From a virus, in IMG/VR virus record IMGVR_UViG_3300042894_004872, positions 1 through 39,605 of that record: 39,605 bases of DNA, one strand, 5' to 3'. The translations under genes and the position numbers were made by a program. A model generated the notes under the pieces. That model did not search any database. It saw only the letters and a program-made list of their open reading frames with translations, and had not been told where the DNA came from. Positions 1,355 to 35,096 of this stretch are shown here, piece after piece; within the stretch, counting starts at the first letter, position 1, and the number at the start of each line of letters is the position of its first letter.

Positions 1355-1583
1355 TAAAAAAGAAAAGGTCTATCAAGACCGAACATTTACTCTAACAGCA
1401 GAGCAAATGAAAAAATTCGATACATGGCGTATTGAAAAGAACAAGACAAAAGGTGAAGTTAATGTTGGTGCTATTGGTGGTGCATATACATTCTGTTTCA
1501 CACCAACTGGATTGGGTACTGTAGAAGTTGTTAAGTGTGCTGATGGTACTCAATTAGACTTAACAGATATCGATAGTTGGTAA
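1347..1583 (+). CDS. Conserved-looking small phage protein, unknown function
   Basis: 78 residues. The N-terminal third is charged; the C-terminal half contains GGAYTFCFTPTGLGTVEV followed by CADGTQLDLTDIDSW, a compact beta-rich pattern that I associate with small uncharacterised phage proteins. No catalytic motif. It sits between the tiny membrane ORF and the Thg1-like gene and is probably co-transcribed with prs. Confidence 0.7.
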   Translation: MSDKKEKVYQDRTFTLTAEQMKKFDTWRIEKNKTKGEVNVGAIGGAYTFCFTPTGLGTVEVVKCADGTQLDLTDIDSW

Positions 1584-1601
1584 TTTTAAACAATAAATTT
1601 T

Positions 1602-2393
1602 ATGGGAAAGAAAATGAGTCTGGGTGATAGGATTAAAACCTATTACGAAGACAGAACCAAGGTATTTTTAAATCGTAAAACCATAACAATCATTAGACTT
1701 GATGGTAAAGGATTTTCTAAATTTACCAAAAATCTAAACAAACCATTTGATGATGGGTTTAGTCAAGATATGGATGCAACAGCATTGTACTTGTGTGAGA
1801 ACATACAAGGTGCTAAGTTTGCGTATACACAATCAGATGAAATTTCTGTTGTTCTATGTGATTTCGATAACATAGAAACAGATGCATGGTTTGATTATAA
1901 CGTACAGAAGATGACCAGTATAGCTGCATCATTAGCAACGTCTAAGTTCAATCAATTGCGATTAGCTAGAAAGTCTAGAGGTGCGAATGGTTATTTAGAT
2001 ATTGGTGATTTGATGGATATGACTTTAGCATGTTTTGATGCACGTGTATTTCAAGTTCCTAACATTGATGAGATGTTCAATGCTATCTTATGGAGACAAC
2101 AAGATTGTACTCGTAATAGTATAAGCATGGCAGCTAGTGCTGTATATTCACACAAAGAACTTGAGAAGAAGTCTGGTAGTGATAAACAAGAGATGCTTTT
2201 TCAGAAGGGTATTAATTGGAATGATTATTTGCCTAAATACAAGCGTGGTAGTGTTATTAAAAAAGAAACTACTGTATTTGAAAAAGCATTTAATGAGTTA
2301 GTTACTCGTACTAAATGGGTTGTTGACATCAACACACCAATATTCACTGAGGATAGAGAATATTTGTACGATTTAATTCCAAATAATTTTTAA
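1602..2393 (+). CDS. tRNA(His) guanylyltransferase-like 3'-5' polymerase (Thg1 family)
   Basis: 263 residues covering the family length. Visible motifs are IRLDGKGFSKFTK near residue 30 (metal-binding Asp and Gly), QSDEISVVL near residue 77 (second metal-binding acidic pair), and QQDCTRNSISMAA, then KGINWNDY in the C-terminal domain. Thg1 and Thg1-like proteins add nucleotides to RNA 5' ends in the reverse direction. Thg1 matures tRNA(His), and TLPs repair 5'-truncated tRNAs. In a phage a tRNA-repair role is plausible but inferred. ATG at 1614 is a possible alternative start. Other RNA-linked proteins nearby are the OB tRNA-binding protein (5498) and the SAK-type HAD (8748). Confidence 0.88.
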   Translation: MGKKMSLGDRIKTYYEDRTKVFLNRKTITIIRLDGKGFSKFTKNLNKPFDDGFSQDMDATALYLCENIQGAKFAYTQSDEISVVLCDFDNIETDAWFDYNVQKMTSIAASLATSKFNQLRLARKSRGANGYLDIGDLMDMTLACFDARVFQVPNIDEMFNAILWRQQDCTRNSISMAASAVYSHKELEKKSGSDKQEMLFQKGINWNDYLPKYKRGSVIKKETTVFEKAFNELVTRTKWVVDINTPIFTEDREYLYDLIPNNF

Positions 2394-2399
2394 TATTAG

Positions 2400-2430
2400 T
2401 TGAACCCCAAAAAATAAAGTAGTACATTTG
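2400..2430 (+). promoter_or_regulatory. Promoter for the HTH-phosphoesterase gene
   Basis: TTG at 2400-2402, 20-base spacer, TACATTTG at 2423-2430; start codon at 2449. Confidence 0.8.
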
Positions 2431-2448
2431 TAAAAAATAACTATATAT

Positions 2449-4002
2449 ATGAAATTTAAAGAATTAACAGAAAAAGAAATTGCTAAAATCACCAAAATCT
2501 ATCAAGATAAAAACATAAGATGGGAAGATAAAATGGCTCAATTGGGTAAGTTTATTGGTAAGGGTGAGCGTAGTGTTAGAAATTGGGTTAAACAATTGGG
2601 TTTAACTGAATCAAATCAACCAATTACTGAACAATATTCTGCGGCACAAGAGAGAAAATTTAATGATAAGTCTAAATACTTTATTGTTACATGGGCTCAA
2701 AATAACACAGATGTTCATAAGGGTTTTTTAAATAACATTGAAGCATATGCTAAACACATCAAAGCTGATATTCATGTTATCCTAGGTAGATACAAGAATC
2801 CAACTAGTATTATGTATAATGCGGAGGAAGAATTTTGGGTTAATGATGTTTTACCATATGCTGATGCTAATAGACATAATATACATAAGTATTTAAGTAT
2901 CATGGGTGATGTTAAAATACAACCAACAGCTGTTAACCCAATGACTGGGATGAATGCTTTGAGTGAAGTTAATTCATGTATATTTGGTGCACCAAAAGTT
3001 CAAATGGAAATGATACCAGTATTAGATGGTGAAGTTCCTAAGATGATGTTAACAACTGGTGCTTTAACACTTAAGAATTATGTTGATTCTAAAGCTGGTA
3101 AGGTTGGTGATTTTCACCATACATTTGGTTTTGTTATTGTTGAAATTAAAAATGATGAAGTTTTTTTCACTAGACAAGTAACAGCTGATGATGAAAATGG
3201 TAGTTTTAGTGATTTATATTTTAATGTATCTAATGGTATTGTTAAAAAAATTGACACTATAGCTGCTGCTGTGTTGGGTGATTTACACTTAGGTCATCAT
3301 GATGATGAAGTTATTGATGCTACATTAAATGTTTTACTTAAAAAACTTAAACCATCACACCTTGTTTTACATGATGTTTTTGATGGTCACTCTATTAGTC
3401 ACCATGAATCAAAAGATGCATTTCAATTGTATCGTAGAGAACAAGATGGGACAAACTCAGTTAAACGTGAAGTTGATAATATGTTGGAATGGTTAGAAAA
3501 AGTTAAATTATACAATGTAACTATTGTTCGAAGTAACCATGATGATTTTATCGATAGATGGCTTATCAACAGTGATTGGAAAAAGAATATCAAGAATGCG
3601 TTGGAATATGTTGAATATGCTCACACTATTTTAAAAGGTGATGCACCTAAAGGTATTATACCTTATTTGATTGAACAGAAATTCCCTAAAATGACAACAC
3701 TTGATAGAAGTACTTCATTCAAAATTTTAGGTTGGGAATTAGGTCAACATGGTGATGTGGGTGCTAATGGTAGTCGTGGTTCATTGTTACAATTTAGGAA
3801 ATTAAATACCAAATGTGTTGTTGGTCATTACCATTCACCAGGTCGTAAGGATGGTGGGTTGGCAGTAGGTACATCTACAAAGTTACGTGTAGGTTACAAT
3901 ATAGGACCAAGTTCTTGGTTACAATCACATGTAATTATCCATAACAATGGTAAAGCACAACACATAAACTTCTTGAATGGTGAATTCACCACTTTTAAAT
4001 AA
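2449..4002 (+). CDS. Calcineurin-like metallophosphoesterase with N-terminal helix-turn-helix
   Basis: 517 residues. Residues about 1-55 look like a helix-turn-helix (KFIGKGERSVRNWVKQLGL). The middle has no recognised family. From about residue 275 the metallophosphoesterase motifs appear in order: GDLHLGHH, HDVFDGHS, RSNHDD, GQHGD, and VVGHYHSPG. The second motif begins HD where the family normally has GD, so one metal-ligand environment is altered, though the following Asp is kept. Substrate is unknown; such enzymes cut phosphomonoesters or phosphodiesters, including nucleic acids. The HTH suggests action on DNA or RNA (inference). It has its own promoter. Confidence 0.82.
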   Translation: MKFKELTEKEIAKITKIYQDKNIRWEDKMAQLGKFIGKGERSVRNWVKQLGLTESNQPITEQYSAAQERKFNDKSKYFIVTWAQNNTDVHKGFLNNIEAYAKHIKADIHVILGRYKNPTSIMYNAEEEFWVNDVLPYADANRHNIHKYLSIMGDVKIQPTAVNPMTGMNALSEVNSCIFGAPKVQMEMIPVLDGEVPKMMLTTGALTLKNYVDSKAGKVGDFHHTFGFVIVEIKNDEVFFTRQVTADDENGSFSDLYFNVSNGIVKKIDTIAAAVLGDLHLGHHDDEVIDATLNVLLKKLKPSHLVLHDVFDGHSISHHESKDAFQLYRREQDGTNSVKREVDNMLEWLEKVKLYNVTIVRSNHDDFIDRWLINSDWKKNIKNALEYVEYAHTILKGDAPKGIIPYLIEQKFPKMTTLDRSTSFKILGWELGQHGDVGANGSRGSLLQFRKLNTKCVVGHYHSPGRKDGGLAVGTSTKLRVGYNIGPSSWLQSHVIIHNNGKAQHINFLNGEFTTFK

Positions 4003-4026
4003 TGTAAACAAATAAATATAAATAAA

Positions 4027-4953
4027 ATGAAACAATTAAAAACAAACAAAAAAAGTTGGAATAAAACAGAGTTAAATTCTTTGTATAAGTATTTCATGCA
4101 TCCATTAGATTTCACACATCAAATGATTCCAACAAGAACAAAAGGTGCTATTAGTCGAAAAATATCTGATATATCAATTGATATATATGATATAAATGTG
4201 GTTTGTAAAGCACTTAGAACTTACATCAGTGTGAATAATATTACACAAACAAGGTTCTGGGAGATTTCAAAAGAATATGATTTGGAAGTTTCTCAAGCAA
4301 CATTATCTAAAGCTATGAATTTAGGTGAGACACTGAATCAATTCTCATTAGGTAGAATTGCTAGAGTGATTGAATTGGATTCAAATTGTATTATTGAGAC
4401 AAAAAAATTCAACGATATTCAAGGTGATTTATTTTCAGAAGTTAATGAACCAGAAATGGTTGTTAACAATAATGAAACTGAAAATGAAGAAGAAACGGTA
4501 AACATTAACACACCAATTGCTACTAACATTCAAGAGCAATTATATACGATTGGTGATTCAATCAAACAAATTGTTAATGAGAACAATGAATTAAAAGAGA
4601 CTAAAGAGTTTTTGGTTAATGAATTAAAGATTAGTGATGATAGATTAACTTCTAAAAAAGAAGAATTATCTAAAAATGAAGCTAAGGTTTCAGAAATCAC
4701 ATTAAACTTAGAAAGGTCTAATGCTTTAAATAAGAATCTTCAATATAAAATCGATGAGTTGATTCATAAAGATGTTATTAATCATGAATTAATCGAAAAA
4801 GTAAATGAACGTGATGTTAAGTTAAGTATTTTAAAAACTGATTATGATTTAACTATCGAAGATAACGCTAAGTTAGTTATTGAGAATGAAGATTTGAAAA
4901 AAGAAATAGAAAGAATTAAAGGTGGTTTATTTGGTTTCTTCAAGAAAAAATAG
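4027..4953 (+). CDS. HTH and coiled-coil protein, unknown function
   Basis: 308 residues. The N-terminus (KKSWNKTELNSLYKYF) resembles a Myb/SANT-like helix. Residues about 60-120 (FWEISKEYDLEVSQATLSKA) resemble a Cro/C1-type helix-turn-helix. From about residue 165 to the end it is one long charged coiled coil (repeated E, K, L and N heptads), finishing with the basic-hydrophobic tail GGLFGFFKKK. The architecture suggests an oligomeric DNA-binding protein. It follows the phosphoesterase by 24 bases and is probably in the same operon. Confidence 0.75.
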   Translation: MKQLKTNKKSWNKTELNSLYKYFMHPLDFTHQMIPTRTKGAISRKISDISIDIYDINVVCKALRTYISVNNITQTRFWEISKEYDLEVSQATLSKAMNLGETLNQFSLGRIARVIELDSNCIIETKKFNDIQGDLFSEVNEPEMVVNNNETENEEETVNINTPIATNIQEQLYTIGDSIKQIVNENNELKETKEFLVNELKISDDRLTSKKEELSKNEAKVSEITLNLERSNALNKNLQYKIDELIHKDVINHELIEKVNERDVKLSILKTDYDLTIEDNAKLVIENEDLKKEIERIKGGLFGFFKKK

Positions 4954-4961
4954 TACATTTG
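4931..4961 (+). promoter_or_regulatory. Promoter giving a leaderless transcript for the HAD gene
   Basis: TTG at 4931-4933, 20-base spacer, TACATTTG at 4954-4961, then TATT and the ATG at 4966. Bacteroidota transcription starts a few bases after this box, so the mRNA should begin at or next to the start codon. The box overlaps the stop of the upstream gene. Confidence 0.75.
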
Positions 4962-4965
4962 TATT

Positions 4966-5355
4966 ATGAATGAAAAATTATATTTGGTGATTGATTTTGA
5001 TGGTACGTGTGTTACACATTCATACCCATACATTGGCAAAGAGGTAGGTTCAGAACCTATCTTAAAGAGATTAACCGATGCTGGACATCGGTTAATTCTT
5101 TTTACAATGAGAAGTGGTAAACAATTGGATGAAGCAGTTGCTTGGTTTAGTGAACAAGGGATACCATTGTTTGGTATCAACACAAATCCAACACAATCAA
5201 CTTGGACCAAAAGTCCAAAGGCTTATGGTAATATTTATATTGATGATGCTGCTTTGGGTTGTCCTTTGATTATTAATGTTGCATATCATGATAGACCATT
5301 TGTTGATTGGAAAAAGGTAGAGGAATTATTAATTGAAATGAAATTAATTAAATAA
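4966..5355 (+). CDS. HAD-superfamily hydrolase, small BT0820-like type
   Basis: 129 residues. Motif I is VIDFDGTCV (nucleophile Asp in DFDGT), motif II is ILFTMRSG, and the late motifs are SPKAYGNIYIDDAALG (Lys, then the DD pair). It resembles the small cap-less HAD hydrolases typified by Bacteroides BT0820, presumed phosphatases of small phosphorylated compounds. Transcript is probably leaderless. It overlaps the next small ORF by TAATG. Confidence 0.82.
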   Translation: MNEKLYLVIDFDGTCVTHSYPYIGKEVGSEPILKRLTDAGHRLILFTMRSGKQLDEAVAWFSEQGIPLFGINTNPTQSTWTKSPKAYGNIYIDDAALGCPLIINVAYHDRPFVDWKKVEELLIEMKLIK

Positions 5356-5501
5356 TGGAAGAAATTAAAGCATATTTAGAAGAACAAATTAAGTATTACC
5401 AAGAATTGGTTGATATGGGTGAAGGTTCCCACAATTCGAGTGATATGATAGAATTTGAAACTTATTTATCTGCTTATCAAAATATATTAGATAAATTATG
5501 A
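5355..5501 (+). CDS. Small acidic helical protein, unknown
   Basis: 48 residues, beginning MEEIKAYLEEQIKYYQELV. Predicted to be a short helical hairpin with a polar turn (GEGSHNSSD). It starts by TAATG overlap with the HAD gene and ends by ATGA overlap with the tRNA-binding protein, which supports it being translated. No family recognised. Confidence 0.6.
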   Translation: MEEIKAYLEEQIKYYQELVDMGEGSHNSSDMIEFETYLSAYQNILDKL

Positions 5502-5845
5502 ATAAAGAAAAAATAACATATGATGAATTTTTAGATATTGAATCTAAATTAGAAATACGTATAGGTTGTGTAGTCGCTTCTGAACGTATACCTAAAAGTA
5601 ATAAACTATTAAAGTTATCAGTTTCTTTTGGTCCTCAAACAACTGATAATATTAAAACTGTTGTTACAAATTTGGGTGATAAGCATGAACCAGAATTTTT
5701 TATTGATTTACATTTACCATTTGTTGTTAATTTAGTACCATCTAAGATGATGGGTGTTGAATCTCAAGCAATGATAATTATTGGTGAAGGAATTAATGGC
5801 GAATTGGATTTTTCAAACTATTTATTAGGGACACAAATATTTTAA
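5498..5845 (+). CDS. tRNA-binding OB-fold protein (CsaA / MetRS C-terminal type)
   Basis: 115 residues, a single domain. The start YDEFLDIESKLEIRIGCVVASE matches the FxDFxKVDLRVG opening of the EMAPII/Arc1p/MetRS C-terminal tRNA-binding fold. It is followed by NKLLKLSVSFGP, KTVVTNLG and VVNLVPSKMMGVESQAMII, the equivalent of the (N/A)xxPRKMxGxxSEGM strand. Freestanding members bind tRNA non-specifically or act as chaperones. Here it lies in a tightly coupled run with Nudix, Smr and IF-3. Confidence 0.82.
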   Translation: MNKEKITYDEFLDIESKLEIRIGCVVASERIPKSNKLLKLSVSFGPQTTDNIKTVVTNLGDKHEPEFFIDLHLPFVVNLVPSKMMGVESQAMIIIGEGINGELDFSNYLLGTQIF

Positions 5846-5847
5846 TT

Positions 5848-6318
5848 ATGGGTAATAAAGTACATGCGGCTGGTATATTTTTGATGAGAAAAGACTTCAA
5901 TGTATTGATTTGTCATCCAACAAATCACGCACCTAATGTATGGAGTATACCAAAAGGTAAGATAGAAGAAGGTGAGGATGCAATGGAAGCTGCTATCCGT
6001 GAAACTTATGAAGAAACAAATGTTAATTTAAATGATGAAACATTAAATGTTAACGACAATTTTAAAATTTATGAGTTTGATATTGTTAATTATGGTCATA
6101 AGAAAAAGGATTTACACCCTTTCTTATTTTTAGAATTACAAACATCTAATATTGATTGGGATAGTGTCATAATTAAGTGTAACTCAGATGTACCAATTGA
6201 ACGTGGTGGTTTTCCAGAAATGGATGGTTATAAATGGGTAACACTTAAAGAAGCTAAAGAATTACTTCACGATACACAAGTTGCGTGTATCGGTAAAATA
6301 ATTGATATAATAAGATGA
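5848..6318 (+). CDS. Nudix hydrolase
   Basis: 156 residues. The Nudix box is GKIEEGEDAMEAAIRETYEE followed by TNV, fitting GX5EX7REUXEEXGU except that Asn replaces the last Gly. It hydrolyses nucleoside diphosphates linked to another group; which substrate is not shown by sequence. Possible roles in this context are dinucleotide or mRNA 5'-end hydrolysis and nucleotide sanitation. It starts 2 bases after the tRNA-binding gene and overlaps smr by ATGA. Confidence 0.9.
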   Translation: MGNKVHAAGIFLMRKDFNVLICHPTNHAPNVWSIPKGKIEEGEDAMEAAIRETYEETNVNLNDETLNVNDNFKIYEFDIVNYGHKKKDLHPFLFLELQTSNIDWDSVIIKCNSDVPIERGGFPEMDGYKWVTLKEAKELLHDTQVACIGKIIDIIR

Positions 6319-6533
6319 AACTAGATTTACATGGTATTAGACACGTAGAAGTGTCAAACAAGGTCGATTCATTTCTATGGGAAGCCATTCAACGAAACAC
6401 ACCAAGTGTAGAGATTGTAACTGGAAACTCAAAAAGAATGAAAGGAATTGTGTATGACTGTGTTTATGACTATGGTTTTGTGTGCACTGAAGGTTTTATG
6501 AATTGGGGTGTTTTGACTGTAATACTAATATGA
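6315..6533 (+). CDS. Small MutS-related (Smr) domain protein
   Basis: 72 residues forming a stand-alone Smr domain. LDLHG at residues 3-7 is the family signature; VEIVTGNSKRMKGIV is the counterpart of the usual IVHGKGxGxL segment, with TGNS replacing HGKG. Smr domains nick or bind branched DNA, and some cleave RNA on collided ribosomes. The changed second motif makes nuclease activity uncertain. Translationally coupled at both ends. Confidence 0.8.
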   Translation: MKLDLHGIRHVEVSNKVDSFLWEAIQRNTPSVEIVTGNSKRMKGIVYDCVYDYGFVCTEGFMNWGVLTVILI

Positions 6534-6706
6534 AATTCAATAAAATAATTGACTTAGGTGAATACATAATAGAAATAGAATATGATGATTTAACTGGGAG
6601 GTTGGAAGTAACTGTATTGGATGAATTGGGTGGTGTGATTGAAAGTATAACAATAACCAATTCCGAAGAAGATAATGATAATCATTTTGATATAAATTTA
6701 AACTGA
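6530..6706 (+). CDS. Small acidic protein, unknown
   Basis: 58 residues starting MKFNKIIDLGEYIIEIEY and ending in an acidic tail. An upstream in-frame ATG at 6503 exists, but the ATG at 6530 overlaps the smr stop as ATGA, the dominant arrangement here, so it is preferred. Looks like a small beta-strand protein. No family recognised. Confidence 0.6.
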   Translation: MKFNKIIDLGEYIIEIEYDDLTGRLEVTVLDELGGVIESITITNSEEDNDNHFDINLN

Positions 6707-7200
6707 TGAGTAAAGCAATCGAAATACAAGCACCAAATGAGTTGCTTAAGAAAGATGGATATATATCTATATTCTTAGCTGGTAGTATTGAAATGGGTAA
6801 GGCTATTGATTTTCAAAGAATGATAATCGAAGCAACATCTAAAATGCCATATATATATTTTAACCCTAGAAGAAATGATTGGGATTCATCTTGGGAACAA
6901 GTTAAAGAAAACGAAAATTTCAGAGAACAAGTTGAATGGGAATTAAATGCTTTGGAACAAGCGGATATAATACTTATGTATTTTGACCCAAATACTGTTA
7001 GCCCAATATCATTATTAGAGTTAGGTGTTTTTGCACATAGCAAGAAAATGATAGTATGTTGTCCAGAAGGTTATTTCAGAAAAGGTAATATTGATATTGT
7101 TTGTGAAAAATATGGTATAAAACAAGTTGAAACATTAGAAGAATTAATCAGTACTTTTCAAAATGCTGACATTGATGAACTTTACATTATAAATAAATAA
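6706..7200 (+). CDS. Nucleoside 2-deoxyribosyltransferase-like protein
   Basis: 164 residues. IFLAGSIEMG near residue 22, FNPRRNDWDSSWEQ near 52, FREQVEWELNALEQADIILMYFDP and SPISLLELG match the Nuc_deoxyri_tr2 type family. The Glu in SLLELG corresponds to the catalytic glutamate. Such enzymes exchange or release bases on deoxynucleosides; a role in nucleotide pools is expected, the exact reaction is not provable. It overlaps the previous gene (TGATG) and abuts infC. Confidence 0.85.
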   Translation: MSKAIEIQAPNELLKKDGYISIFLAGSIEMGKAIDFQRMIIEATSKMPYIYFNPRRNDWDSSWEQVKENENFREQVEWELNALEQADIILMYFDPNTVSPISLLELGVFAHSKKMIVCCPEGYFRKGNIDIVCEKYGIKQVETLEELISTFQNADIDELYIINK

Positions 7201-25592: not shown

Positions 25593-25610
25593 TTATGTAT
25601 TACCTTTTTT
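25582..25610. terminator. Bidirectional intrinsic terminator
   Basis: AAAAAAGGTAAT (25582-25593) pairs with ATTACCTTTTTT (25599-25610), loop TATGT. The flanking A and T runs give a terminator in both directions, between the convergent genes ending at 25592 and 25593. Confidence 0.85.
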
Positions 25611-26252
25611 AATAAATCTATTAACATAGCTACATAATGGCTGAAGATTGGTGTAATGATTAAGTCTATATACATCATCTTCAGTTATTGCAGTACACAT
25701 TGGAATAATGTGGTCTATATCCCATGTCTTATTTAATTCGTACACACCATCTTTAGGGTTACCGTAGTTATCCCATGACATCCAATCTTTAAATTTAGAT
25801 TCTATGTGTAATTTAAAATCACTGAATGAACAACCAAGTATCGTTTCAGTTTTTGTTATTTTAATTAGTTTTTTAGATTTTAATCTTGCTCTGATTGAAT
25901 CTCTTATTGCACTTGATACAATAAATAAAGGGTTTTTCTTTAATACTTCATTTCTATATTTTCTTTGTTGTTTATTAATTAAATCACGACTTTTAGCGTT
26001 ATAGGTTTTTTTCTTTTCTAAGATTATTTCTTTATTATCCTCATAGTATTTCTTATCTTTCACATTCAATAGTTCTATATTATTTTTACGATATTCTTTA
26101 CGATAATTTGGGTTATTTAATCTCCATTCTTTATTTTTAATTCTAACACATTCTTTACACATATTTCTTAAACCATCTTTAGTGTTTTTAGATGTTGTAA
26201 ACTCACATAGATTTAAATCTAAATCACATTTAACACACTTCTTTTGTTCCAT
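25593..26252 (-). CDS. HNH homing endonuclease with zinc finger
   Basis: 219 residues. N-terminal zinc finger (CVKCDLDLNLCEF and CKECVRIK), a basic helical middle with KEYRKNN-type repeats, then ILGCSFSDFKLHIESKF, the WDNYG segment and the HNH core TWDIDHIIPM...YTNLQPLCSYVNR. It resembles the HNH enzyme at 31447 from the ILGC segment onward. It overlaps the upstream ribbon-helix-helix gene by 23 bases, forming a minus-strand two-gene module. Confidence 0.87.
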   Translation of the reverse strand: MEQKKCVKCDLDLNLCEFTTSKNTKDGLRNMCKECVRIKNKEWRLNNPNYRKEYRKNNIELLNVKDKKYYEDNKEIILEKKKTYNAKSRDLINKQQRKYRNEVLKKNPLFIVSSAIRDSIRARLKSKKLIKITKTETILGCSFSDFKLHIESKFKDWMSWDNYGNPKDGVYELNKTWDIDHIIPMCTAITEDDVYRLNHYTNLQPLCSYVNRFIKKGNT

Positions 26253-31125: not shown

Positions 31126-31455
31126 ATGATTATGGATATTTGTAGAAATTTGTTAGAGTTACACCAAATATATGGTGTGTTAACACAATCAGAAACACAA
31201 GGTTTATTAGATGGTTTAGAGGAATCTAAAATAGAGTTAACGAAGATTAAAATTATTACACTTGAAAAAATGTTTAATGACATTGATGCTGAAGATATTG
31301 ATGAGGGTATTGAACTTTTATCAGCAATCAAAGAGCAAATGGAGTATGTTAAACATAATATAAAAGTTGTTGAAGATGCACTTATGTGTCATCATACCAA
31401 ATGTTCGGAAAAAAGAACTTTATTTGGTAAATTGGAAACCATATGGTTAAATTAA
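31126..31455 (+). CDS. Small helical protein, unknown
   Basis: 109 residues from the ATG at 31126 (31132 also possible). Acidic helical pattern (DGLEESKIELTKIKIITLEK) with a possible metal-site run CHHTKC near the end. Overlaps the converging HNH gene by nine bases. Confidence 0.62.
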   Translation: MIMDICRNLLELHQIYGVLTQSETQGLLDGLEESKIELTKIKIITLEKMFNDIDAEDIDEGIELLSAIKEQMEYVKHNIKVVEDALMCHHTKCSEKRTLFGKLETIWLN

Positions 31456-32163
31456 ATTATGCCTTTTTATGTCTCGATTAACTTTACTACACAATGGTTG
31501 AAGGTTTCTGAAATGGTTTAGTTTCAGTAACTCTTCTTCTATAGTAGAAGATGCTACTGGTATAATATGGTCAATATCCCAACCATGATTCAACTCACCA
31601 TTATATAAACCATAGTTATCCCAATTCATCCATGGTTCAAACTTTGCTTCTAAGTGTGTTTTAAATTCACTAATAGTACATCCAAGAATCTTAACAGATT
31701 TCAAAGATTTGTGAATATTTTTACGTTTAAAACTACTTCTAACGAGACTACTATAAACTTTTTTTATTTTATAAAAGTTATCTGTTTTATATTTATTGTT
31801 TTCGTATAAACGTCTATTATCAATAAATTTTTTACTATATTTACGGTACTCTTTTACCCACCCATTTATTTTTTCTTTATTCTGTTCACGATACCCTTTA
31901 TTATATTTTTTTAAATATTCTTTATTATTATCACACCATTTTTTATTTAATAATTTTAGTTTTTCTTTATTTAGTTCACGATATTGTTTTCTTTGTTTGT
32001 TAATTTTTTCTTTATTTTCTTCTCTATATACTTTTTTTTGTGAAAGAATGCTATTTTTATTATCTTTATAATATTTTTCTTTTTTTGCTTTATTAATCAA
32101 ATAATATTCTTTTTGGTAAATACGTCTAGCTTCTTTTTGTTCGGGTGTTAATTCTTTTTTCAT
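31447..32163 (-). CDS. HNH homing endonuclease with charged modular repeats
   Basis: 238 residues. The first ~125 residues hold repeated units of about 14 residues, such as YREENKEKINKQRKQYRELN, which look like nuclease-associated modular DNA-binding repeats. Then ILGCTISEFKTHLEAKF, WDNYG and the HNH core GWDIDHIIPV...FRNLQPLCSKVNRDIK. It is a paralogue of the enzyme at 25593 from ILGC on, but its N-terminus lacks the zinc finger. ATGA overlap with the upstream RHH gene. Confidence 0.87.
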   Translation of the reverse strand: MKKELTPEQKEARRIYQKEYYLINKAKKEKYYKDNKNSILSQKKVYREENKEKINKQRKQYRELNKEKLKLLNKKWCDNNKEYLKKYNKGYREQNKEKINGWVKEYRKYSKKFIDNRRLYENNKYKTDNFYKIKKVYSSLVRSSFKRKNIHKSLKSVKILGCTISEFKTHLEAKFEPWMNWDNYGLYNGELNHGWDIDHIIPVASSTIEEELLKLNHFRNLQPLCSKVNRDIKRHNLI

Positions 32164-32435: not shown

Positions 32436-32951
32436 ATGAAAAAAATATTATATTTAGACCTCGACGAGGTATGTGCTAACTTCAAACATAGGATGATTGA
32501 GTTATTCCCATTCACCGAGCATATCTTCAATGAAGAAGAATCATTTGAGAATGGAGTAATCATAGAGGACTGTATGATGAAAACACCAAGATTATTTCGT
32601 GATTTAGAACCAATAGATGGTGCTATTGATAGTGTTAAAAGACTTTCAGAACACTATGAGATATACTTCTTATCAACACCATTTTGGGAAGTTCCAGAGT
32701 CATTTATGGACAAGAGACATTGGTTGGAAGAACATTTTGGTGAGTTAGCCTATAAACGTCTTATTCTATCACATAGAAAGGATTTAAACATGGGTGCTTA
32801 TCTAGTTGATGATAGACTTGCCAATGGGTCAGAAAACTTCTTAGGTGAGCATATTCACTTTGATACACCAGAATTTCCTAATTGGAAGATTGTTGAGAAT
32901 TATTTGATGCAAGAAGAAAAGATTCATGGTCGTAAACTTTCATTTTCATGA
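32436..32951 (+). CDS. 5'(3')-deoxyribonucleotidase (NT5C-like HAD phosphatase)
   Basis: 171 residues. ILYLDLDEVCANF carries the nucleophile pair DxD, YFLSTPFW holds motif II, KRLILSHRKDLNMGAYLVDD carries the Lys and DD of motifs III and IV, and ENFLGEHIHFDTPEFPNW is the family end. Removes phosphate from deoxynucleoside monophosphates, adjusting dNMP pools. Its TGA touches the first attC-like palindrome, but no matching element lies upstream, so it is probably resident and not a cassette. Confidence 0.85.
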   Translation: MKKILYLDLDEVCANFKHRMIELFPFTEHIFNEEESFENGVIIEDCMMKTPRLFRDLEPIDGAIDSVKRLSEHYEIYFLSTPFWEVPESFMDKRHWLEEHFGELAYKRLILSHRKDLNMGAYLVDDRLANGSENFLGEHIHFDTPEFPNWKIVENYLMQEEKIHGRKLSFS

Positions 32952-33020
32952 TAACTTATAAGTCTATTTCTAAGGAATTACGTTTGTTGATAGCAAACTT
33001 TCTTATACTCCTTGTTATAC
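32951..33020 (+). repeat. attC-like palindrome 1
   Basis: ATAAC (32951-32955) pairs with GTTAT (33014-33018); TATAAG (32957-32962) pairs with CTTATA (33002-33007). Unpaired CTCCTT sits between the inner and outer stems on one side. An inner hairpin GTTTG/CAAAC lies in the loop. Confidence 0.5.
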
Positions 33021-33039
33021 AAAGTATTTTGTGGGAGGG

Positions 33040-33070
33040 TTGATAAATTAAAAATAAATTAGTATATTTG
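33040..33070 (+). promoter_or_regulatory. Promoter inside the cassette array
   Basis: TTG at 33040-33042, 20-base spacer, TATATTTG at 33063-33070. Could express the 33087 peptide and the downstream cassette genes. Confidence 0.72.
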
Positions 33071-33086
33071 TAAAAAAACATAAATT

Positions 33087-33167
33087 ATGGGAGAATTATT
33101 AAAAACATTAATCAGTTTAAAATATAGGTCGTTCGGGTGTGTACGTAATATTGCACCTAACGTCTGA
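33087..33167 (+). CDS. Possible 26-residue peptide or truncated cassette gene
   Basis: MGELLKTLISLKYRSFGCVR then six residues and TGA, which falls inside attC-like palindrome 2. A good promoter precedes it. The matching cassette ends do not agree here (GTTATACAAAG versus CACCTAAC), so the cassette is probably rearranged. Confidence 0.35.
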   Translation: MGELLKTLISLKYRSFGCVRNIAPNV

Positions 33168-33208
33168 TGATAAACAATCGTTTTAATGTTGTTTATCATT
33201 TGTTATAC
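33158..33208 (+). repeat. attC-like palindrome 2
   Basis: TAAC (33158-33161) pairs with GTTA (33202-33205); ATGATAAACAA (33167-33177) pairs with TTGTTTATCAT (33189-33199). Unpaired GTCTG and TT separate inner and outer stems. The loop region holds ATCGTTTTAATGTT, which recurs in the ORF-less cassette at 33932. Confidence 0.55.
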
Positions 33209-33239
33209 ACAGTACATTTTAAATTAAATTATAAATAAT

Positions 33240-33773
33240 ATGAAGGAAAAATTAGAAAATGAAAGACCAGAACCAATCGAACAAAAAGATGTTATTTGGG
33301 GTGAACGTGAAAAAAAAGAAAAAGTGAGTGTTTTAATAGGGCTTAGTCGCTCCCCAGGGTTCAAACCAATTTCTGATATGGAAGTTGGTGAATACGAGTA
33401 TTGGTTAAGAAGTAATGAAGATTTATTTGATGTTATACCAAATTTAGCATTAGAACTATCAAACTTTTTAAACCAACATAAATATAGTAATGAAGAAATA
33501 ACATACTTAGACTTTCAACAACTTGGGTTTAAAGTTAAACACTATGATGAAGAATGGTGTAAATTTGAAAAAATAACTAACGATGGTGAAATAAGTGGAA
33601 AATTCTATTTTAAAACCAAACATTTAATGATTGCAAATTGGATTGACAACGAAGGTGAAAATTGTTATAATGGAACAATTCATAGTAAGAAATTTCTATT
33701 TGAAGTATTAACATCATTAAGTACTGTTTCACGAGAAGAAATTTTAGGTATTGGTAGAAAATATATGGATTAG
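33240..33773 (+). CDS. Cassette gene, unknown acidic protein
   Basis: 177 residues, fills the cassette between palindromes 2 and 3. Charged N-terminus (RPEPIEQKDVIWGEREKKEK); later KFYFKTKHLMIANWIDNEGE. No family recognised. Stop codon is three bases before the next palindrome, as is usual for integron cassettes. Confidence 0.62.
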   Translation: MKEKLENERPEPIEQKDVIWGEREKKEKVSVLIGLSRSPGFKPISDMEVGEYEYWLRSNEDLFDVIPNLALELSNFLNQHKYSNEEITYLDFQQLGFKVKHYDEEWCKFEKITNDGEISGKFYFKTKHLMIANWIDNEGENCYNGTIHSKKFLFEVLTSLSTVSREEILGIGRKYMD

Positions 33774-33776
33774 TAT

Positions 33777-33931
33777 TGTGTATAACGGAAAATAATAAAC
33801 GTATGTGTTGGTGTGTGGTTAAAGTGTTCCTCTGGCTAATGGACAAGTACCATAACCGTAAGTGCCTAAAACTTACCATACCACGCTACGGGCGGAACAC
33901 GCCAACATTACGTTTATTTATTGTTAGCAAA
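33777..33931 (+). repeat. attC-like palindrome 3
   Basis: TGTGTATAAC (33777-33786) opens it; AATAAACGTA (33793-33802) pairs with TACGTTTATT near 33909-33919, flanked by TTGG/CCAA. A large variable interior includes GTGTTCC/GGAACAC and a GTAAGT/ACTTAC hairpin. It ends GTTAGCAAA (33923-33931). More GC-rich than surrounding DNA. Confidence 0.55.
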
Positions 33932-33942
33932 TCGTTTTAATG

Positions 33943-34040
33943 TTTGCTAACGGTTGAGGCTATGAGCAGTTGCCTTGTAAATACTGCTCAATTAACCACA
34001 AATGCTGATAGGCAATTGCTTATAGCCTTTGTTAGCAAAC
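33943..34040 (+). repeat. attC-like palindrome 4
   Basis: TTTGCTAAC (33943-33951) pairs with GTTAGCAAA (34031-34039). GGTTGA versus TTT is unpaired, then GGCTAT (33958-33963) pairs with ATAGCC, and TTGCC pairs with GGCAA further in. Outer stem, unpaired spacer, inner stem and variable loop is the attC layout. Confidence 0.6.
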
Positions 34041-34047
34041 GTATTTT

Positions 34048-34380
34048 ATGAATTATGAATTAACAACAAATAGACAATATTCACACCACGATAAAGATGG
34101 TGCTGACAGAAATTACATATCCTATTTTTTGAACGGTATATTAATATTGAAACAAAAAATACCATTTGATATAAATTGGGAGAGGGGTTTTGATAGACGA
34201 ACATCAATATATGATGAATATATTTTGAATGGTAAAATGTATCAAAAACGCAGAAAGTGGCTTGGGTGTTCTAATGAGGATAATGATAAAACAGAAATAC
34301 GAGAAGTGTCATTTCCATTATCAAAAAATAGATTAGCACAATTTAATATACCAAAGGACTTTCGGGTTGTGGTGTCTTAA
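34048..34380 (+). CDS. Cassette gene, unknown protein
   Basis: 110 residues, MNYELTTNRQYSHHDKDGAD then a beta-rich body (YISYFLNGILILKQKIPFD) and KMYQKRRKWLGCS. No family recognised. It starts 7 bases after GTTAGCAAAC and ends three bases before GTTTGCTAAC, so it fills one cassette. Confidence 0.62.
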   Translation: MNYELTTNRQYSHHDKDGADRNYISYFLNGILILKQKIPFDINWERGFDRRTSIYDEYILNGKMYQKRRKWLGCSNEDNDKTEIREVSFPLSKNRLAQFNIPKDFRVVVS

Positions 34381-34383
34381 TAT

Positions 34384-34519
34384 GTTTGCTAACGGCTGAC
34401 GCTATACGAAGGTGGGGAATAAGATGCACAACCCTTGCTTACCGCACAAAAGCAAATTAGATGCACAACTATTCAAATTTGGCACACAGCCCCACTTTTG
34501 TATAGCGTATGTTATAGGC
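34384..34519 (+). repeat. attC-like palindrome 5
   Basis: GTTTGCTAAC (34384-34393), unpaired GGCTGA, then CGCTATAC and AAGGTGGGG pairing with CCCCACTT and GTATAGCG, unpaired TAT, and GTTATAGGC (34511-34519). A long internal region carries smaller repeats (GATGCACAAC twice). The clearest attC-like site of the set. Confidence 0.62.
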
Positions 34520-34537
34520 TGTATTAATTTTTATCAC

Positions 34538-34759
34538 ATGAAATTACCGAAAATTACATTTAGCAAATACAATTGGTCAAGAAGTTGCTACCGCCCCACA
34601 TTCAATAAATATTGGAGTGGTAAAATATGGAACTTCTCGATTTACAAATATGGAGTATCAATAGATTTTAGGGGAGGTTTTCAAATGACCGATTTACTAA
34701 ATGATACGGAGAAGAAATCGTTTTGGTTACGAATAGGCTTATTAATACGGAAAAATTAA
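34538..34759 (+). CDS. Cassette gene, unknown small basic protein
   Basis: 73 residues from the ATG at 34538; an in-frame ATG at 34412 lies inside palindrome 5 and is unlikely. Basic and aromatic: YNWSRSCYRPTFNKYWSGKI. Possibly nucleic-acid binding. The cassette is bounded by GTTATAGGC (34511) and GCCTATAAC (34764). Confidence 0.58.
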   Translation: MKLPKITFSKYNWSRSCYRPTFNKYWSGKIWNFSIYKYGVSIDFRGGFQMTDLLNDTEKKSFWLRIGLLIRKN

Positions 34760-34763
34760 TATT

Positions 34764-34800
34764 GCCTATAACTACTTACTATACGAACTTTAAATTGTAT
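34764..34800 (+). repeat. Remnant attC-like site 6
   Basis: GCCTATAAC (34764-34772) opens the site, followed by CTATAC and GTATA partial pairing, but the closing GTTA half is missing. The array appears to end here by deletion or insertion junction. Confidence 0.45.
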
Positions 34801-34805
34801 AAAAA

Positions 34806-35096
34806 ATGAAAGTTATTGAAAAACAAGAAGATAACCGTACAATTAAAATTATGATTATTTCTCATAGATTTAATAACTTTCCTAATATTGTTTGTAGTGG
34901 TTCAAAGATATATCAATTACCATGTCAGATTGGAAAGAAATCTTTTAATATTAAAGAATTAAACCCAAAATATCATCAAGGTTCAATTGTTTATATAATT
35001 AACTCAAAAAGAATTAATTCTAAAACACTTAAAATTAGTGCTTTAAAAGTTAATGAAGAATTTATTTTGGAAAAAATTGAAATTTGTCCATTTTAA
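34806..35096 (+). CDS. Unknown small basic protein at the array end
   Basis: 96 residues. IKIMIISHRFNNFPNIVCSG then KIYQLPCQIGKKSFNIKELN and INSKRINSKTLKISALKVN give a repetitive basic beta pattern. No family recognised with confidence. It may be the last cassette gene or the first resident gene after the array. Confidence 0.58.
   Translation: MKVIEKQEDNRTIKIMIISHRFNNFPNIVCSGSKIYQLPCQIGKKSFNIKELNPKYHQGSIVYIINSKRINSKTLKISALKVNEEFILEKIEICPF

Follow-up and report, generated by a model that had tools for sequence, protein, structure and literature searches.

A putative integron-like gene-cassette array in a phage contig without a recombinase gene

The closest described systems to the element reported here are integrons and clusters of attC sites lacking an integrase (CALINs). 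Qi et al. 2023 (PMC9892861) reported that phages carry integrons and CALINs whose sites the integron integrase IntI1 recognises. Another study (PMC7790495) views the I2 helix as an innovation that enables integron integrases to recombine single-stranded DNA. Our analysis concerns 39,605 nucleotides of viral DNA (IMG/VR record IMGVR_UViG_3300042894_004872, positions 1 to 39,605; the whole stretch is called the window below). Four abutting units at 33162-34772 on its plus strand, with one decayed unit upstream (32956-33161), very probably form an array of mobile gene cassettes that belongs to an integron-like capture system encoded by phages; the contig itself lacks the recombinase. The array is best read as an integrase-less member of such a system with inverted cassettes, one that would function like an integron but would not be an IntI integron. 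An earlier reading made from the DNA letters alone (the original prediction) had likened the region to a CALIN carried by a phage.

Structure and boundaries of the cassettes

Each unit extends from directly after one TAAC through the next TAAC. It is made up, in order, of a hairpin, a left arm starting with GTTA, a small open reading frame (ORF; usually one, none in U2) and a right arm ending in TAAC (Table 1). In each of the units U1 to U4 the right arm is complementary to the left arm of the same unit, and the complementary ends differ from cassette to cassette (GTTATACACA/TGTGTATAAC, GTTAGCAAA/TTTGCTAAC, GTTAGCAAAC/GTTTGCTAAC and GTTATAGGC/GCCTATAAC); the arms of U4 are 91% complementary over 22 nt. 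This cassette-specific complementarity, which the original prediction took as a sign that every cassette once circularised with its own site, is real, and the covariation does imply circularisation. Units were then counted strictly, requiring TAAC/GTTA cores, a stem score no lower than 10 and a 9-nt arm that recurs as its complement within 2 kb. Five were found on the plus strand of the window, four of them consecutive in the array. Among 200 dinucleotide-preserving shuffles, 195 held no such unit and the maximum was 2. Our script detectors can overlook imperfect hairpins.

Folding as single-stranded DNA was compared with that of dinucleotide shuffles. Palindromes B, C, D and E, which are the hairpins of U1 to U4, folded better than the shuffles (z of -3.6, -2.8, -4.6 and -3.3, respectively), and the reconstructed circle junction of U1 folded far better (z -6.7). 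The palindromes proposed at gene boundaries were thus borne out for these four. The first one proposed (A, 32951-33013) folded no better than shuffles (z -0.7) and was dropped as a hairpin. An Rfam search returned nothing credible. The hairpins sit at gene boundaries rather than being dispersed as ordinary repeats, and cassette order varies between relatives, with exchange of single cassettes seen.

Complementary arms are a general property of the cassettes. For 264 pairs of consecutive hairpins, collected with no requirement on the arms, the 5-nt stretch following GTTA was an exact match to the next unit boundary in 155 (59%); the figure was 1.8% with shuffled partners and 1.4% with the flank upstream of the same hairpin. 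A set of 298 distinct units was selected on eight arm positions. Positions 12-15, which lay outside the selection, were paired in 71-83% of these units, and pairing fell to about 40% from position 16. Position 11 was mostly a G opposite a T, with Watson-Crick pairs in 4%. These values point to an outer stem of 15 bp with a fixed G/T. Such a stem would be whole only once the cassette's own ends meet, and therefore in the circle. The cassettes thus carry foldable attC-like sites whose outer boxes match inside a cassette, as in integrons. The R' box GTTRRRY, which the original prediction had found imperfectly kept in the window, is fitted by just 19 of the 298 units.

Shared segments show where cassettes begin and end. 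U1 recurs in other IMG/VR contigs. Locus L013 holds a 630-bp match of 99.7% identity; L014-L017 and L019, which are probably copies of one phage, match over 629-635 bp with about 88% identity (87.7%). The shared segment (33158-33787/33792) runs from the TAAC before hairpin B up to TGTGTATAAC, ahead of hairpin C, with unrelated sequence on either side. Both limits of the homology are at TAAC, and hairpin B therefore moves together with the ORF that follows. Further cassettes are shared by L048 and L111 (550 bp, 100%), L010 and L028 (540 bp, 96%), and L044 and L053 (492 bp, 99%). Among distinct segments, 28 of the 5' ends lie at TAAC and 2 at GTT, against backgrounds of 1.5% and 1.1%; the corresponding counts for 3' ends are 11 and 0. 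TAAC and GTT each cover 0.8-1.5% of array positions. The original prediction had started the cassettes at the GTT side (R') and placed the hairpin at the 3' end of the ORF. This is contradicted by the breaks, which fall at the TAAC side (R''). Unlike the attC of integrons, which lies at the 3' end of the ORF and is cut at R', the hairpin of these units precedes the ORF. Each hairpin thus belongs with the ORF that comes after it, an arrangement opposite to that of standard integron cassettes. The longer ORF is sense in 237 and antisense in 9 of the 298 distinct units, and in integron terms the recombined strand would be the one bearing the sense sequence of the ORF.

Four loci with U4-type hairpins (L001, L002, L027 and L049) carry the same hairpin, leader and 3' arm around different ORFs. 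Their shared sequence reaches the ATG or its vicinity, and the stop codon is found within the right arm or beside it. This pattern is possibly a trace of cassette birth.

The decayed unit, U0 (GTTATACAAA...GCACCTAAC), is the sole breach of the arm-matching rule. Its left part reads GTTATACAAAG, its right end is GCACCTAAC, and these arms do not match. The right end belongs to another cassette family, which is present in L013. Because its 3' end resembles that of a different L013 cassette, U0 is probably two cassettes fused by deletion, which would explain the breach.

A phage recombinase and an attI-like site in related arrays

A search of the window record for tyrosine recombinases (PF00589) found none, in agreement with the original prediction that no integrase is visible. 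Of the contigs gathered by one hairpin pattern, four had a strong PF00589 protein directly after the array. Searching with these four proteins gave 89 viral stretches, 80 of which were kept, and the recombinases in them were located by protein patterns alone, irrespective of arrays. In 56 of the 68 loci with enough upstream sequence, the last unit ends less than 250 bp upstream of the recombinase gene, typically at 52-53 or 98 bp. Hairpin B (up to 3 mismatches in 34 nt) was present in 28 of the 80 integrase-linked loci, always on the integrase strand; for hairpin D the start was found in 2 of these loci and for hairpin E in 3. The window array belongs to this integrase-linked cassette pool.

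The recombinase, roughly 265 aa long, is XerA-like, with a phage clade of its own and without the IntI-specific insertion. The linked phage proteins cluster in a single clade (100/99) that excludes both IntI (100/100) and the bacterial XerA-like proteins, and the six classical catalytic residues, R131, K156, H215, R218, H241 and Y250, are invariant across 45 sequences. The best solved relatives are archaeal XerA and, with a gap, IntI4; IntI4 aligns as two blocks with extra residues between them. The span between the two arginine motifs (GLR to HxLRH) is 85-88 aa in 56 phage enzymes versus 133 in 6 IntI, and the IntI insertion is therefore missing. The score against TIGR02249 is about 150 bits, versus a cut-off of 265.

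Among bacterial XerA-like relatives checked for arrays, the recombinase was recognised in 19 of 20 loci, clear adjoining hairpin units were found only in L225, and the attI motif in L224. At L225 (1723-4000 and 11590-13301, reverse-complement coordinates), the XerA-like recombinase is accompanied by hairpin units whose ORFs point away from it, the standard cassette polarity; this locus is possibly a bacterial relative of the phage arrays. At L224 (bacterial genome G147; 1372-6878, reverse-complement coordinates), the attI motif and a phage-type recombinase gene (6072-6878) follow a DNA methyltransferase-like ORF and precede phage-like genes. Two copies of a reverse-transcriptase-like ORF of 426 aa, possibly a group II intron, stand there in place of the cassette hairpin.

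In the relatives, a conserved attI-like site, AAC|TATTATATATAAACA, lies between the array end and the recombinase gene, the position that attI takes beside an integron integrase gene. If cassettes were inserted at this site, turnover would be expected beside it, with distal cassettes kept. This is the pattern seen. Near-identical blocks of attI and recombinase stand next to differing cassettes, with the break at TAAC. L095 and L096 are 100% identical across attI and integrase (1229 bp) and have no cassette in common. Four attI-distal cassettes are common to L080 and L094 at 100% identity, but next to attI the two loci differ; the integrases of L073 and L074 are 99.5% identical, with mostly different cassettes. 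In the window, the corresponding position scores weakly with the position weight matrix (PWM) for attI (rank 24 of 79162 positions), which is suggestive only.

Arrays of this type of unit occur in many phage contigs, with up to about 20 units each, and the U4 hairpin type is found in 40 viral contigs with differing ORFs. One array lies in LR756500.1 (L246 10556-14328), an unannotated metagenomic phage record of 462 kb in which only a recombinase fragment is present, elsewhere in the record. Most of 141 cassette proteins had no Pfam match. Six were N6/N4 DNA methyltransferases, and single cassettes matched Dam, a D12 methyltransferase, the Thoeris inhibitor Tad3, an RNA ligase and an exonuclease. 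We infer that this cargo serves counter-defence. In the window, the ORFs of U1, U3 and U4 matched no Pfam or PHROG family, and two cassette ORFs searched against named phages had no match; the ORF of U3 has relatives in L244 (80%) and L245 (73%).

Both genes that flank the array lie on the plus strand (Table 1). A search of viral_contigs returned no close relative of the backbone genes in the window. Based on its phage relatives (Flavobacterium, Maribacter) and on bacterial relatives of the recombinase, the phage probably infects Bacteroidota. Elsewhere in the window, two similar minus-strand ORFs (31447-32163 and 25593-26252) end in an HNH-like motif. These are probable homing endonucleases, opposed in direction to most other genes. 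The phage also carries a Thg1-like tRNA-His guanylyltransferase (1602-2393).

Table 1. Features of the cassette array and its flanks, in window coordinates
Feature	Position	Strand	Basis or details
NT5C-like 5'-deoxyribonucleotidase, backbone gene upstream of array	32436..32951	+	Pfam NT5C 7e-20; PHROG 2643
TAAC, left bound of array	32952..32955	+	sequence
U0, decayed/chimeric cassette, weak hairpin	32956..33161	+	3' end 33118-33164 shares 91% identity with the end of another cassette, found in L013
U1, cassette	33162..33786	+	hairpin 33162-33201, left arm 33202-33216, ORF 33240-33773 (177 aa), right arm 33772-33786
U2, cassette without ORF	33787..33951	+	hairpin 33787-33922; arms GTTAGCAAA / TTTGCTAAC separated by 11 nt only
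U3, cassette	33952..34393	+	hairpin 33952-34030, left arm 34031-34045, ORF 34048-34380 (110 aa), right arm 34379-34393
U4, cassette	34394..34772	+	hairpin 34394-34510, left arm from 34511, ORF 34538-34759 (73 aa), right arm to 34772
Position equivalent to attI of integrase-bearing relatives; possibly decayed attI (AACTACTTACTATACGAAC)	34773..34805	+	attI PWM, weak
96-aa ORF, where relatives carry the recombinase gene	34806..35096	+	matches neither PHROG nor Pfam

Proposed mechanism and alternative explanations

The mechanism that we propose builds on the unit structure, arm covariation, TAAC breaks, polarity, turnover at attI and the link of integrase, attI and array seen in these phages. A cassette would exit as a circle, in which the right arm, hairpin and left arm join into one long foldable site with an outer stem of about 15 bp (the conserved G opposite T at position 11), an asymmetric bubble and an inner stem. 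The XerA-like tyrosine recombinase, encoded beside attI in complete members, would carry out the reaction on this folded single strand, cutting it at TAAC. The cut strand would be joined at attI (AAC|TATTATATATA), directly upstream of the recombinase's own gene, so that the recombinase end is where new cassettes would come in. The cassette ORFs point the same way as attI and the recombinase gene. We propose, therefore, that transcription runs through the array and that the cargo could be read with the phage operon, making an integron Pc promoter unnecessary. In the window phage, the recombinase would be lost, encoded in an unassembled part or supplied in trans.

Several points weigh against this reading. 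The window has no recombinase, and its attI is at best decayed. Most of the viral contigs, which reach 362 kb, are metagenomic fragments, with a terminase match in 15 of 40. Of the distinct ends of shared segments, 54 of 84 at the 5' side and 79 of 90 at the 3' side lie at neither TAAC nor GTT, and many of these, left unsorted, fall within the recombinase gene or phage backbone. Finally, activity on a folded single strand is postulated for an enzyme without the IntI insertion, and for such recombination the arm covariation is suggestive only.

The best surviving alternative, which we nevertheless consider unlikely, is that the array is a CALIN of ordinary bacterial cassettes from a host chromosomal integron, moved by the host IntI, as proposed for phages by Qi et al. 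2023 (PMC9892861). Phage CALINs are on record there, and in the phylum to which a Flavobacteriales metagenome-assembled genome belongs, 84 of 297 genomes had an IntI above the TIGR02249 cut-off; suitable hosts may therefore hold IntI. A scan of the sequence around 15 IntI loci of the host phylum showed the detector no arrays of this hairpin type, a result that says little as intI was unrecognised in 9 of the 15. Against this alternative, one hairpin type occurred in 40 viral contigs versus 4 contigs in 257 Gb of genomes, a comparison open to environment bias. The rarity of GTTRRRY, the breaks on the R'' side, the inverted ORF polarity and the linked phage clade without the IntI insertion also argue against bacterial cassettes.

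Less probable still, the recombinase could be an ordinary lysogeny integrase beside attP, with the hairpins acting as terminators or regulatory elements swapped by ordinary phage recombination. PHROGs do classify the protein as a phage integrase, but this scenario does not account for breaks at one 4-nt core whose neighbours vary, for arms that covary over 15 nt across each ORF, for arrays of such length, or for turnover at the integrase end with distal cassettes retained. Units moved by a Y1/HUH transposase (IS200/IS605-like) and inserting beside a tetranucleotide were rejected as very improbable: the hairpin at one end and TAAC at both boundaries resemble IS608, which has a hairpin at its end and a tetranucleotide at its boundary, but a Y1 transposase was found in 1 of 40 array-bearing records while a tyrosine recombinase adjoins the array in most integrase loci, and arms complementary across an ORF are not a known feature of IS200/IS605.

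Beyond the single array, a phage-encoded capture system has a wider form, which we favour with some reserve: phages would encode their own IntI-independent, integron-like platform, in which an XerA-derived recombinase acts on folded hairpin sites without the IntI insertion and shuffles a shared counter-defence pool among large phages. If this is true, cassette gene capture extends beyond cells with IntI, and a dedicated phage version trades small genes singly, among them DNA methyltransferases, a Thoeris inhibitor, an RNA ligase and many unknowns. The system would also be an independent test of the need for the I2 helix. The arrays, with about 300 distinct units collected, flag a large pool of candidate counter-defence genes.

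Comparison with known systems

XerA and XerC-like recombinases (PDB 4a8e, 5hxy) match the phage recombinase best in both sequence and fold, and to our knowledge they are not known to move hairpin-bearing cassettes.

The phage CALINs of Qi et al. 2023 (PMC9892861) are similar in their attC-like clusters with small ORFs and methyltransferases in phage genomes. They differ in being presented as cassettes exchangeable with bacterial integrons, and the parts of that account considered here mention neither a dedicated recombinase clade nor an attI or an inverted polarity. One of these CALINs, that of Polaribacter phage P12002L, shows abutting units on re-reading; in these, like those of the window, the hairpin comes first and the ORF follows. 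No recombinase of the phage clade was found in P12002L. The window has several attC-like sites and no recombinase, in a contig that is possibly a fragment, and may count as a CALIN (at least two attC sites, no integrase). The likeness stated in the original prediction stands for cassettes with their own attC-like sites and no integrase, but not for bacterial IntI cassettes, as the recombinase is phage-specific and lacks the IntI insertion, and there is no GTTRRRY box.

In Treponema integrons (PMC3607928), integrase and cassettes are co-directional, as in the phages. There, intI reads toward attI and stands ahead of the cassettes; in the phage system it is the cassettes that read toward attI, with the integrase gene after them.

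Integrons with IntI, attI and attC, both class 1 and chromosomal, are alike in having a tyrosine recombinase gene beside an attI-like site and small cassettes with foldable sites. They are also alike in the complementarity of each cassette's own R' and R'', in turnover beside attI and in cargo mostly of unknown function. In contrast to integrons, the phage system has no IntI insertion, does not keep GTTRRRY and has inverted ORF polarity relative to the recombined site, and for these three reasons we have not filed it as an integron. Its outer arms of about 15 bp and an array that is read toward the integrase set it apart further.
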